From Streptomyces exfoliatus (GTDB taxonomy: Bacteria > Actinomycetota > Actinomycetes > Streptomycetales > Streptomycetaceae), in contig NZ_JNZP01000007.1 in the NCBI RefSeq assembly GCF_000725545.1, positions 175,488 to 239,487 on the forward strand: DNA of 64,000 nucleotides, in the 5' to 3' direction. The notes under the pieces are model-generated. The model saw only the letters and a list, made by a program, of their open reading frames with translations, searched no databases and was not told where the DNA came from. Below, in pieces: positions 44,598 to 62,230 of this stretch. The position numbers and the translations under genes are program-made. The number at the start of each line of letters is the position of its first letter. Position 1 is the first letter of the stretch.

Positions 44598-45929
44598 ATG
44601 CAGCAGAACGCACCTGAGTCGTCGCTCATCGGGGAGGAGTACGAGGTCGAGGTCGGACCGGTCGCCCACGGCGGCCACTGCATCGCCCGCACCGAGGAGG
44701 GCCGCGTCCTCTTCGTCCGCCACGCGCTCCCCGGCGAGAAGGTCGTCGCCCGCGTCACCGAGGGCGAGGAGACCTCCCGCTTCCTGCGCGCCGACGCGGT
44801 CACGATCCTCGACCCGTCCAAGGACCGCGTCGAAGCGCCCTGCCCCTTCGCGGGACCCGGCAAGTGCGGCGGCTGCGACTGGCAGCACGCCAAGCCCGGC
44901 GCCCAGCGCCGCCTCAAGGGCGAGGTCATCGCCGAGCAGCTCCTGCGGCTCGCCGGACTCACCCCGGAGGAGGCGGGCTGGGACGGCACGGTCATGCCCG
45001 CCGAGGGCGACAAGCTCCCGCCGGGCGAGGTCCCGCAGTGGCGCACCCGCGTGCAGTACGCGGTCGACGCCGAGGGCAACGCGGGCCTGCGCAAGCACCG
45101 CTCCCACGAGGTCGAGAACATCGACCACTGCATGATCGCCGCCCAGGGCGTCTCGGAACTCGGCATCGAGAAGCGCAGCTGGGAGGGCATGGCCTCCATC
45201 GAGGCCATCGCCGCCTCCGGCTCCGGCGACCGCCAGGTCATCCTGACGCCGCGCCCCGGCGCGCGCCTCCCGCTGGTCGAGCTGGACAAGCCGGTCTCGG
45301 TGATGCGGGTCGACGAGAAGGACGGCGGCGTCCACCGCGTCCACGGCCGCGCCTTCGTCCGCGAGCGCGCCGACGAGCGCACCTACCGCGTCGGCAGCGG
45401 CGGCTTCTGGCAGGTCCACCCCAAGGCCGCCCAGACCCTCATGCTCGCCGTCATGCAGGGCCTGACGCCCCGCAAGGGCGAAACGGCCCTCGACCTCTAC
45501 TGCGGCGTCGGCCTCTTCGCGGGCGCCCTCGCCGACCGCGTCGGCGACCAGGGCGCGGTCCTCGGCATCGAATCCGGCAAGCGCGCGGTGGAGGACGCCC
45601 GCCACAACCTGGCCGCCTTCCCGCGCGTCCGCATCGAACAGGGCAAGGTCGAATCGGTCCTCCCGCGCACGGGCATCACCGAGGTCGACCTCATCGTCCT
45701 CGACCCGCCCCGCGCCGGCGCCGGCAAGCAGACCGTCCACCACCTCGCCGGCCTCGGCGCCCGCCGCATCGCCTACGTGGCCTGCGACCCGGCAGCCCTG
45801 GCCCGAGACCTGGCCTACTTCGCGGACCGCGGCTACAAGGTCCGGACCCTGAGGGCGTTCGACCTGTTCCCGATGACGCACCACGTGGAGTGCGTGGCGA
45901 TCCTGGAGCCGGTGAAGAAGGACGCCTGA
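44598..45929 (+). CDS. RNA (uracil-C5)-methyltransferase, TrmA/RlmCD family
   Basis: A 443-residue SAM-dependent RNA m5U methyltransferase. N-terminal TRAM domain (VEVGPVAHGGHCIARTEEG, residues 12-70). The cluster CPFAGPGKCGGCDWQH (about 78-95) gives Cys for an Fe-S centre, one fewer than some homologues show. Catalytic domain: FWQVHPKAA, ALDLYCGVGLFAGALA, VLDPPRAGAGK, and nucleophile Cys396 in YVACDPAALARDL. The last 13 or so residues (HHVECVAILEPVK) are encoded by an att-like repeat also found at 62188-62227, and the terminal KDA belongs to the island. Which uridine is modified cannot be said. Confidence 0.9.
   Translation: MQQNAPESSLIGEEYEVEVGPVAHGGHCIARTEEGRVLFVRHALPGEKVVARVTEGEETSRFLRADAVTILDPSKDRVEAPCPFAGPGKCGGCDWQHAKPGAQRRLKGEVIAEQLLRLAGLTPEEAGWDGTVMPAEGDKLPPGEVPQWRTRVQYAVDAEGNAGLRKHRSHEVENIDHCMIAAQGVSELGIEKRSWEGMASIEAIAASGSGDRQVILTPRPGARLPLVELDKPVSVMRVDEKDGGVHRVHGRAFVRERADERTYRVGSGGFWQVHPKAAQTLMLAVMQGLTPRKGETALDLYCGVGLFAGALADRVGDQGAVLGIESGKRAVEDARHNLAAFPRVRIEQGKVESVLPRTGITEVDLIVLDPPRAGAGKQTVHHLAGLGARRIAYVACDPAALARDLAYFADRGYKVRTLRAFDLFPMTHHVECVAILEPVKKDA
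45878..45917. repeat. Left attachment site (attL-like 40-bp core)
   Basis: These 40 bases are identical to 62188-62227 in the same orientation. With flanking bases the match is 46 of 47 (45871-45917 versus 62181-62227) and it continues more weakly upstream. The site lies in the last codons of the RNA methyltransferase gene, a classic position for site-specific integration. Confidence 0.85.
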
Positions 45930-45945
45930 GCTGCTGTTTCTTCGA

Positions 45946-46025
45946 GTGTGCGTTATGGGCGTTACATGCGTTAGGTGCGATATCTTGACGCATGTTCGAC
46001 GTGCGCGGCGCATGTTTGACGCACG
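45946..46025 (+). repeat. Left-end iterons, possible integrase arm sites
   Basis: GCATGTTCGACG (45990-46001) and GCATGTTTGACG (46010-46021) are direct repeats exactly 20 bp apart. TTGACGCATG and TTGACGCACG overlap them. GTGTGCGTTATGGG (45946-45959) recurs with one change at the right end of the island (62056-62069). Confidence 0.55.
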
Positions 46026-46560
46026 AACGGCATGGTTTCTGATGGGTCGTCATGCGTGATTGGCGACCGCCGAATGGGCCCCTCGGGCGTGTGGTCGTAG
46101 GCACGTTGCGGTGGCTGGGGCGCTGGCTGCCGAGCTGGCAGCTGCCCCTGCCCCATCCGCTTCTCGGTAGTGACGTTCCGTGACGCTAGGTGGGGTGTCC
46201 GGTGCGTGTTGTGTCAGGGGCCGCCATGGCTCCGGCGCTCGTGAAAAGGCTTGAGGTCGTCGCCGCTCCCGATGGGGCGGAGGGCGGTTCTCGAGCACGG
46301 CCGGACTCGTGATCGGTGCTGCGTGGCCGCAGCGGTGGAGCGCGCGCCGGTCGGTCCGGCGGCATCGGTGATGACCGGGCGTCGTGCGACATGCACGACC
46401 GTATGCCGGAGGAGCTGAACCCCTCGGGGCCTGCGGCCGTACATAGCGTCGAGGCCATCGGAGCTCCAGACGGGTGCGTGCGATGGCCGGTTCATCTAGA
46501 CGGCAACCCGTCGGCCTCCTTGCCAGGATGCCAGCGCCATTCCCGAAGGACCACAGACCT
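46026..46560. other. Non-coding left flank of the island
   Basis: No reading frame here has a plausible start, ribosome site or recognisable protein. A GC-rich inverted region with CAGCTGGCAGCTG-like bases lies near 46120-46150. The dps ribosome site (CGAAGGACC) is at its right edge. Confidence 0.5.
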
Positions 46561-47034
46561 ATGACGATGATCAACAGCCCGCTGCCGGAGGGCGACCGCG
46601 AGATCGCCGGCGCGGCCCTCCAGGCGACCCTGGTCGACCTGCTCGACCTGTCCCTGGTGGCCAAGCAGGCGCACTGGAACCTGTACGGCCCGCGTTTTCG
46701 ATCAGTCCACGTCCAGCTCGACGAGGTTGCCTCGATCGCACGTGACCACGCGGACACGGTGGCCGAACGCGCGGCTGCGCTGGGAGTGAGTCCGGACGGA
46801 CGGGCGGTCACCATCGCGGGCACCAGCGGCGTGCCTGCTTTCCCGTCAGGCTGGACGAAGGACGGCGACGCTGTCGATGCCCTGGTGCGTACGTTCTCCG
46901 CGGTCATCGGGAGGGTGCGGCAGCGGATCGAGGAGACTGGTCCGGTGGACGCCGTGAGCCAGGATCTCCTCATCGGGCTGACGGCCGAACTGGAGAAGCA
47001 TGCGTGGATGTTCCAGGCGGAGAACAGGGCCTGA
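46561..47034 (+). CDS. Dps-family DNA starvation/ferritin-like protein
   Basis: A 157-residue Dps. The ferroxidase residues are found with exactly the Dps spacing: His38 (AKQAHWN), His50 (SVHVQLDE), Asp54, Asp65 and Glu69 (RDHADTVAER), which form the inter-subunit iron site. Dps oligomers oxidise Fe(II) with H2O2, store iron and protect or compact DNA. The first 10 residues are the only N-terminal tail, so DNA binding may be weak. ATG start with CGAAGGACC. First gene inside the island; no obvious peroxide operator was found upstream. Confidence 0.9.
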   Translation: MTMINSPLPEGDREIAGAALQATLVDLLDLSLVAKQAHWNLYGPRFRSVHVQLDEVASIARDHADTVAERAAALGVSPDGRAVTIAGTSGVPAFPSGWTKDGDAVDALVRTFSAVIGRVRQRIEETGPVDAVSQDLLIGLTAELEKHAWMFQAENRA

Positions 47035-47850
47035 CGAGGTTGGACTCGTGCTGTCGGATGGGGTGACCGCCGACTGCGGTGTCACTGGAGGCTTGCGGTA
47101 TCCGCAGGGACGGGCTGGCTGCCGGATGAGAACGGCGGCCGAGGAGCTGTCGCCAAGAGGCTGAGCGGTCCTTCCTGGACGAGGCGGAGCTCGGTGATCG
47201 CGAAAGGCCTGGGGACCGGCATCCACTCGGCACGGAGAGGTGGCGGCAGGGGGCGGTCCGGGGCCGGGACGCAGTTTGTCCCGTGCCGTTCCTGCCGCAG
47301 CGGGCTTTCCTCGGCAACGAGTCCGGAGATCACTCCCGACCATCCGGTTCCGCGGGGTCCGGGGGCAGGGTGAGGCGATCACGACCTCTCTGGCGAGGGC
47401 GAGCGAAGAAGACGACGGGCGTGTATCGGGTCCGTGGCGACCTCGTGCGCCGCTGGTCGCGAGTCGATCCGTAGTGGGGCTGATCATCGAGACGCCCATG
47501 TCGTTCGAACGGCTCCGGACAGAAGCAGGGCAAGACGACAAGGGCGTTTGAGTGCCTGGGTGTCACTGCTTTCCGAGCAGAACCCTCCGGGGGCGGTTCA
47601 CGATTCCCACCAGGTGGGTGGAGCCCGGCAGCGGTGCCTGACGAGTTCATGCGCCATCGTCGTGAGACCGGACTCTCCGGGTTCCTCCCCTCGACTTCGG
47701 TGGCGACGGACCATCCCCGACATGCCGACACCCCGGGGCCGAGCGGAACCGCCCGGGGAGCGGCACCGGACGGGACGGTGACGTCAGGACCCATCCGGCG
47801 GCGCCGCGGACCGTGGATGACCGGGCCCGCATCGCCCGTCCGTGCCGTGA
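47035..47850. other. Gene-free 816-bp stretch in the island
   Basis: Reading frames on both strands lack start signals and protein-like composition. It lies downstream of the sigma factor gene, where an anti-sigma gene is often found; none can be recognised. Probably decayed DNA. Confidence 0.5.
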
Positions 47851-61667: not shown

Positions 61668-62044
61668 GGGCTTGCGGGCCGGTCCCCGATCGCGGGGGTA
61701 ACGATGCTCATCGTCACCCGCAAGAGTGGCCGCCGCCGCAAGCTCCTGCCGCACCAACGCCCACTCGTAGCTCTGGTGTACCTGCGCAAGCACGACACCC
61801 TGGCCCAGATGGCAGCCGGACTTCGGCATCTCGGTCGGCACCGCCCACGCCCACACCGCCGCCACGGCGTGAACGCGCAGGTCGTGGCCGACCCGCTCGG
61901 GCAGGCGCTGTGGATCTCCCGGCACCCGTTGCACGGGGCATGACGCGAGTGAAGTCATGGCACATCTTCCGAAGATCCCGGATCAGCCCCAACCGCATGA
62001 CGTCAATCGCCAAGGCTGTCCTCACTCTGGAGAGGCAGCGCTGA
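61668..62044 (+). pseudogene. IS5-family transposase, internally deleted and frameshifted
   Basis: An N-terminal helix-turn-helix piece (HQRPLVALVYLRKHDTLAQM) and a DDE-domain piece (RHGVNAQVVADPLGQALWI) share one frame that ends at 61943. The C-terminal end (VKSWHIFRRSRISPNRMTSI, AKAVLTLERQR) lies in another frame, ending at 62044. The order matches IS5 transposases, but roughly half of the catalytic domain is missing. Confidence 0.8.
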
Positions 62045-62055
62045 AAACGCTCACT

Positions 62056-62069
62056 GTGTGCGTCATGGG
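62056..62069 (+). repeat. Right-end copy of the GTGTGCGTYATGGG repeat
   Basis: GTGTGCGTCATGGG matches 45946-45959 with one change and in the same orientation. Short repeats (TAGCGC twice, GCACGTA) surround it. A possible recombinase arm site. Confidence 0.45.
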
Positions 62070-62180
62070 TCGCACGTAGCGCCCCTAGCGCACGTAATGC
62101 ACATTGATCTTGAGTCCCTTTTGTGTCTCGCGAGCCGCTGACCTGTGGTTTCCTTAACCTGTTTTGGCTCTACATGTTTG

Positions 62181-62230
62181 CGATGAGGCACCACGTGGAG
62201 TGCGTGGCGATCCTGGAGCCGGTGAAGTAA
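62181..62230 (+). pseudogene. Displaced 3' end of the RNA methyltransferase gene (attR-like)
   Basis: Bases 62188-62227 are identical to 45878-45917 and stay in the methyltransferase frame, HHVECVAILEPVK, then a TAA stop (62228-62230). This is most simply the original gene terminus, separated from its body by island integration. The present gene ends instead in the island-supplied KDA. Confidence 0.8.

Follow-up and report, generated by a model that had tools for sequence, protein, structure and literature searches.

An island without a recombinase gene at the 3' end of rlmD in Streptomyces exfoliatus, and a tyrosine integrase family beside the same site in other Streptomyces

Introduction

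In Streptococcus, the methyltransferase gene rum (rumA) is described as the integration site of a phage (Phim46.1), of integrative and conjugative elements (ICEs), and of integrative and mobilizable elements (IMEs), and it was termed an integration hot spot. For the ICEs at rum, the sections of the published accounts used here describe a single serine integrase, repeats of 2-21 bp, and an altered gene end. Here we describe a 16.3-kb island at the 3' end of rlmD, a gene of the same family, in Streptomyces exfoliatus. The island lies in a stretch of 64,000 nucleotides, hereafter the window (assembly GCF_000725545.1, contig NZ_JNZP01000007.1, positions 175,488 to 239,487; G000:C7:175488-239487, where G, C and L numbers are our handles for genomes, contigs and loci, and G000 is the host genome). 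The window ends with the contig, so the right flank of the island is visible over 1.8 kb only. As in the rum-type ICEs of Streptococcus, the HHVECV codons of the rlmD/rumA gene were the place of integration, and the 14-bp sequence CACGTGGAGTGCGT, which is given for the rum side in S. suis ICEs, falls within the 40-bp repeat of the window, that is, in the same stretch of the same gene family. Unlike the streptococcal site, with its serine integrase and repeats of 2-21 bp in the accounts cited, the Streptomyces site has an associated tyrosine recombinase (PF00589) and a repeat of 40-47 bp, and the host genome contained no PF07508 match.

The actinomycete ICEs (AICEs) of Streptomyces are reported to use mostly tRNA genes, and once rlmN, as integration sites; decayed forms (DAICEs) with integrase loss, leftover direct repeats and accretion at a single site are described in the same source (PMC9513070). 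The rlmD site resembles these elements, as far as that description goes, in accretion at one site, integrase loss and leftover direct repeats, whereas the window island differs from AICEs in its position at rlmD and in that Pfam recognised no gene for transfer or replication among those scanned. The PAISt and TR1-TR2 islands of plant-pathogenic Streptomyces are alike in using the 3' end of a protein gene, in their tandem or modular arrangement, and in the fixation of some of them through int erosion (PMC4057263, PMC10711302), but the targets named in these sources are bacA and aviX1 and the attachment (att) sequences are others. A cis-mobilizable element (CIME), as defined in the source consulted, has kept attL and attR while its integration and transfer genes are gone (PMC5704250). 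The window island likewise has both att sites and no integration or transfer genes, although movement in cis is only putative for it. No description of rlmD as an integration site in Streptomyces was found in the open-licence papers searched, among the matches listed. The preliminary description of this locus, made from the sequence alone, had called the methyltransferase unfamiliar as a target in Streptomyces; this held for that genus in the literature searched but not more widely, rum/rumA being a known hot spot in the streptococcal accounts.

Results

The repeat and the target gene

The island was bounded by an exact 40-bp direct repeat on the plus strand, at 45878-45917 (attL core) and 62188-62227 (attR core), with a spacing of exactly 16,310 bp. 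Over the wider span of 45871-45917 and 62181-62227, 46 of 47 positions agreed, and the sole mismatch was C at 45877 versus G at 62187. The left copy forms the 3' end of rlmD (44598-45929, plus strand), whose product is an RlmD-type 23S rRNA (uracil-5-)methyltransferase with TRAM and tRNA_U5-meth_tr domains and scored 200.1 bits against TIGR00479 (cut-off 183.55). Both copies encode HHVECVAILEPVK at the C-terminal end in the methyltransferase frame, which continues with KDA and a stop in the left copy and with an immediate stop in the right copy. The length, spacing and frame of the repeat reported in the preliminary description were all confirmed. Chance was ruled out as its origin by the exact match of 40 bp, the recurrence across genomes, and the rarity of repeated 40-mers in the window, which were confined to three places: a tandem at 7526/7562, the att pair, and a paralogous regulator stretch at 50420/58196. 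The first of these was a perfect 41-bp direct repeat with a period of 36 bp, a short tandem outside the island. A 113-base att query (E 1e-3) retrieved only the two att copies from the host genome, a third row being the self-match of a hairpin described below. No tRNA gene that could have been the target was found in the window.

The site in other genomes

Matches to the att query occurred in 24 of the 41 genomes compared (the host and 40 relatives), and at least two copies were present in 16 of these 24 (host included, hairpin self-match excluded). Where copies lay close together on one contig, their spacing was between 2 kb (G005) and 51 kb (G010); in G001, G016 and G024 the copies were on different contigs, and in G012 the second copy was 4 Mb away. 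Eight genomes had one copy each. Six of these copies (G002, G003, G006, G019, G020, G025) were linked to rlmD and were not followed by the left arm described below, and for this reason these sites look like empty ones; in G018 and G021 the left arm was present. The copy in G019 was identical to that of the window at 40 of 40 positions.

Two sister genomes had the flanks of the window around other inserts. In G178, rlmD (93% at the amino acid level), attL, a 43.2-kb insert, attR and a cytochrome P450 gene (87%) were arranged with flanks as in the window. The two sequences matched up to 46262, which is 333 bp past rlmD, and again over 62058-62227, and between these segments there was no nucleotide match of at least 60 bp. 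In G004, rlmD (94%) was followed by an 11.3-kb insert ending in the right arm of the window, then by 23 kb and the P450 gene (91%). The P450 relatives in G332 and G375 had no att copy of at least 32/47 in the preceding 26 kb and 38 kb, respectively.

Conserved arms inside the repeats

The left arm (45918-46262, plus strand) contained TGACGC at 45986, 46017 and 46181. The right arm (62048-62187, plus strand), of a type that we call RA-W, contained GCGTCA at 62060 and TGACCTG at 62139, and the left-arm segment 45947-45992 was an inverted match of it (33/46). Over 45930-46262 the left arm was 81% identical in G178, and it was 69% identical over 287 columns in G004. In a survey of 120 distinct att copies, consisting of 34 rlmD-linked and 86 distal ones, the window-type left arm followed 21 of the rlmD-linked and 31 of the distal copies. 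The window-type right arm preceded none of the former and 26 of the latter, a few of the 26 matching in the att-proximal part only. The frequency of TGACGC after the rlmD copies was 3.38 per 150 bp with the arm (n=21) and 0.08 without it, against a background of 0.07; upstream of 60 distal copies without RA-W it was 1.72 per 150 bp. Judged by their sequences, the arm motifs look like integrase arm sites, which the enzyme would bind.

For the 21 copies linked to rlmD, a Mantel test gave no link between the similarity of the left arms and that of the host rlmD genes (rho 0.004; the observed value was reached or exceeded in 939 of 2000 permutations), and for the right arms only a weak link was seen (rho 0.196, 294 of 2000 permutations, 10 rows). 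Vertical inheritance of the arms was rejected on these grounds. Such independence is expected of moving ends, and it therefore favours movement over plain descent. A further att copy with both arm types was observed at G004:C5:348568-348740, on a separate 397-kb contig that is possibly a plasmid and hence a possible vehicle.

A tyrosine integrase family beside the site

A search of 12 genomes with PF00589 gave matches adjoining att copies in G015 and G007. The G015 integrase consisted of 371 aa and had relatives of 69-77% identity in G001, G007, G021 and G024; in the host genome there was none at E 1e-30. A scan of named genomes with a five-row alignment of the integrase returned 57 loci, 55 of them titled Streptomyces and three probably the same records as G001, G021 and G024. 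An att copy of at least 34/47 was present in 39 of the 57 loci and always on the integrase strand, while the best match in reversed-sequence controls was 31/47. The search for integrases at the same site, which the preliminary description had suggested, in this way led to a tyrosine family. Its members are about 370 aa long and belong to PF00589. Among solved structures, their profile matched tyrosine recombinases, XerA and the Int protein of 6en0 being examples; the top-ranked chain, 9i5v, bears an unrelated molecule name.

A small helix-turn-helix (HTH) protein of excisionase type had a homologue in 54 of the 57 loci. Homologues of a relaxase were found in 10, of a DnaC-like protein in 11, and of a Rep protein in 12; the member of the relaxase set from L070 matched PF03432, and the relaxase-bearing elements look like IMEs. 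Complete units of rlmD, attL, int and attR were observed in G007 and L114, and also in L108 with a broken int frame. The left arm of the window was located 3' of rlmD in G007, L114, L108 and L085, all with the integrase downstream, and also in G001 and G024, with the integrase on another contig. In G015, the array at G015:C1:6038561-6216298 consisted of rlmD, a 39-kb RA-W island, an att copy, about 138 kb, a family integrase and another att copy. Neither a known phage nor a known plasmid was identified as the carrier of this integrase: among the matches listed, the best phage match had 37% identity, and the 466 plasmid records included one in the 60-80% band, the top listed match having 40%.

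Absence of recombinase and transfer genes

The statement in the preliminary description that the island has no recombinase was borne out. PF00589 (E 1e-5) matched 12 times in the host genome and not at all on the window contig C7, the large serine recombinase family PF07508 had no match in the host genome, and a six-frame scan of the window with a home-made hidden Markov model (HMM) of tyrosine recombinases gave none either. The home-made model overlooked one weak PF00589 match in G007, and PF00589 itself was therefore run on 14 further genomes with the RA-W arm; no match was found within the stretches examined. A serine integrase was also rejected, since all 22 matches that PF07508 gave in 12 genomes, a set that excluded the 14 further RA-W genomes, lay outside these islands. 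The island had no homologue of the relaxase, Rep or DnaC proteins of the integrase-bearing elements, and no transfer or replication family was recognised by Pfam among the island open reading frames (ORFs) scanned, TraB being covered by the Pfam scans only and not searched by name.

With respect to the features of a CIME, attL and attR were kept with arms on their inner sides, and integrase and transfer genes were absent. As to descent from an ICE or IME, the left arm was common with integrase-bearing elements and the right arm was of another type. An IME, ICE or AICE would have its own integrase with a relaxase or TraB; in the island, there was no integrase, no relaxase homologue, and no TraB in the Pfam scans.

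Islands with the RA-W arm

The RA-W arm was present in 22 of 372 genomes (host included), with 72-92% identity outside the host and some partial matches. A tyrosine integrase was present in 4 of 11 islands of relatives with the second type of right arm (type 2) compared with none of 20 RA-W islands (Fisher p 0.010). The 20 islands were set by hand from 23 scanned, G183, G294 and G015c being dropped because of short or missing att context. Two of these rows (G323, G275) had the arm without a recognised adjoining att and two type-2 rows (G016, G017) had little upstream DNA; with these four removed, p was 0.007. The distal copies of G012 and G023 fitted neither arm type and were excluded from the test. 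An integrase of the family was found anywhere in the genome (E 1e-60) in only 1 of 18 RA-W genomes, and in G226 frameshifted integrase pieces lay past the att, outside the island. This scarcity, together with the absence of a family integrase from the host, speaks against current help in trans, which the preliminary description had offered beside integrase loss.

Within 1.5 kb of the right end, a PIN protein (132 aa, PF01850) or its partner of about 94 aa was matched in 15 of 23 RA-W sequences, and the PIN protein was full length in five. In many islands, the two genes adjoined the right arm in a toxin-antitoxin-like arrangement, as at L193:17167-17849 (minus strand). No remains of the pair were detected in the window at E 1e-3, and another comparison gave only weak ones among the matches listed. 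This conserved gene at the right arm was considered as a hidden recombinase and rejected because, by Pfam, one of the pair is a PIN protein, while the other, the small partner, has no Pfam match. The smallest RA-W unit, 1.5 kb in G321 (L186:17194-18704), had both arms and a truncated PIN gene and consisted of nearly the ends only.

Cargo and flanking genes

The G+C content was 69.4% in the island and 72.5% in the rest of the window. The cargo included genes for a Dps/ferritin-like protein (46561-47034, plus strand, PF00210), an extracytoplasmic function (ECF) sigma factor (47851-48432, minus strand, Sigma70_r2 and r4), a GDSL lipase/acylhydrolase (52375-53253, plus strand, PF13472), and two alpha/beta hydrolases (54040-54882, PF12697, and 55187-56020, PF00561, both on the plus strand). 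A protein of the class C beta-lactamase fold (60172-61320, plus strand, PF00144) is probably an esterase, its best NCBIfam match being the LipL esterase/beta-lactamase family, below the cut-off of that family. Two paralogous regulators of the Streptomyces antibiotic regulatory protein (SARP)/AfsR-like type were observed in the one island. The copy at 56437-59667 (minus strand), with BTAD, NB-ARC and TPR domains, was open over 1076 aa, while the second copy at 49163-51544 (minus strand) was frameshifted or broken, with the three domains in separate overlapping frames; the intact paralogue matched it by tblastn in four segments and two frames, with 58-76% protein identity. Compared with 22 other sequences, only the two regulator ORFs had matches, weak ones (27-30%) in G023. 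A defence island was rejected, as PADLOC gave only weak TPR/TRIP13 matches to the regulator.

On the left, an APC-type amino acid permease gene (42436-44484, plus strand, PF13520) was the conserved neighbour of rlmD, and a similar gene was located 5' of rlmD in L108, L114 and L085. Directly 3' of the right repeat, a strong, terminator-like double hairpin occupied 62228-62443 (plus strand), with a folding energy of -125.5 kcal/mol and a z of -8.4 over 62228-62420; none of the att-query matches in the 40 relatives extended as far as this hairpin. The right chromosomal flank contained the P450 gene (62607-63875, minus strand, PF00067), which is also 3' of attR in G178.

Discussion

We consider it probable, at roughly 0.8, that the island is an integrative element which entered the 3' end of rlmD through tyrosine-integrase recombination and is now a CIME-type remnant or passenger. 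Site-specific entry, as proposed in the preliminary description, was supported because the site recurs throughout the genus, sister genomes share the flanks with other inserts, the arms are conserved at both ends, and a tyrosine integrase family is found beside the site. The crossover would have occurred inside the repeated rlmD tail encoding HHVECVAILEP. The integrase most likely to act on the site would be the family of about 370 aa from the 57 other loci, acting with the small excisionase-type HTH protein, and it is presumably this family that made the insertion in the window. The int, xis and transfer genes would since have gone, with attL, attR and both arms kept; int was presumably lost rather than always absent, and it is the shared left arm that would point to an integrase-bearing ancestor.

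Several observations weigh against such an origin. In 18 of the 57 integrase loci, the DNA examined had no att copy, and 13 of the 34 rlmD-linked copies had no left arm, including those at the occupied sites of G005, G008, G013 and G014. The comparison across relatives put forward in the preliminary description gave the same flanks with other inserts in G178 and G004, but an empty site with the exact flanks of the window strain was not found. The integrase-bearing elements had the second, TGACGC-rich type of right arm, not RA-W, and the 20 RA-W islands, of which 10 have an att copy on either side and the other 10 were visible over 13-19 kb from their right end, yielded no tyrosine integrase; a recombinase other than the known family could therefore be RA-W's own. 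It is also conceivable, although we regard it as rather unlikely, that RA-W elements, often with the PIN toxin-antitoxin-like pair, form a standing class without an integrase, that the island is one of them, and that they move only when a second element of the same cell or array supplies the integrase. The occurrence of the arm in 22 of 372 genomes, the contrast of 0/20 with 4/11 islands (p 0.010), the matches to the PIN protein or its partner that 15 of 23 sequences have near their right end (PIN full length in 5), and the array of G015 that joins an RA-W island with an integrase-bearing unit are all consistent with such a class. Yet only 1 of 18 RA-W genomes had an integrase of the known family, the pair was not detected in 8 of the 23 sequences, the window included, and the search for serine integrases excluded 14 of the 18 genomes; moreover, the RA-W islands were picked for the sequence of their arm and the type-2 islands from the att-query relatives, and the two sets are not one sample.

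The right end of the island raised a further difficulty. The 216 bp after attR (62228-62443) had no counterpart in G178 or G004, homology being resumed at 62444 in G004 and at about 62590 in G178, and in a right-flank search of 392 genomes the best alignments started at or beyond 62444, with a threshold that would hide a short separate match. Hence, there is less certainty about the right boundary than about the left one, and it may represent a junction from inside a former array. That the copy at 62188 is such a junction, left by deletion of the right part of a longer array, and not the chromosomal attR, seems to us a little more doubtful than a standing RA-W class. Arrays with three att copies do exist (G321, G015), and the gene end after attR reads KKDA and a stop in G178 versus VK and a stop in the window, which both speak for this reading; the sequence past 62227, however, has no left arm, unlike the inner junctions in G004, G015 and G321, and the hairpins resemble ordinary gene-end terminators. 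The rlmD end could also have been duplicated in part through homologous or illegitimate recombination, with no mobile element involved. This would agree with the lack of a recombinase, but it is very improbable in view of the same repeat with differing inserts across the genus, the conserved inner arms and the integrase family beside the site.

On the whole, known principles explain the integrase-less island at rlmD; the site and the integrase family are new for Streptomyces, and the recurrence of integrase-less members is left unexplained. As a tentative and more speculative proposal, the rlmD 3' ends of Streptomyces might be a genus-wide landing strip for an integrase-less class whose members have a left arm in common, a right arm of their own and in many cases a PIN pair, and which would spread and swap cargo in reliance on the integrases of other elements. 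Such a class would be the tyrosine-integrase counterpart of miniature inverted-repeat transposable elements (MITEs) and of clusters of attC sites lacking integron integrases (CALINs), and the tyrosine family and the streptococcal serine integrases might each have come to the same conserved codons independently.

In the gene order published for S. koyangensis, the neoabyssomicin (abm) gene cluster immediately follows TrkA, an amino acid permease and RlmD (abmN) (PMC5819245). Judged by this gene order as printed and not by comparison of the sequences, the cluster may be cargo of the rlmD site, and the order suggests a route by which gene clusters reach the rlmD locus. The picture of integration in Streptomyces has mainly been one of tRNA genes, and rlmD extends it by a hot spot in a protein-coding gene. 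With a candidate integrase-xis pair and an arm motif named, integrase-less islands at this site become recognisable by their ends alone, and the finding of two unrelated types of integrase, one in each of two phyla, at the same codons of RlmD provides a testable case of convergent site choice.

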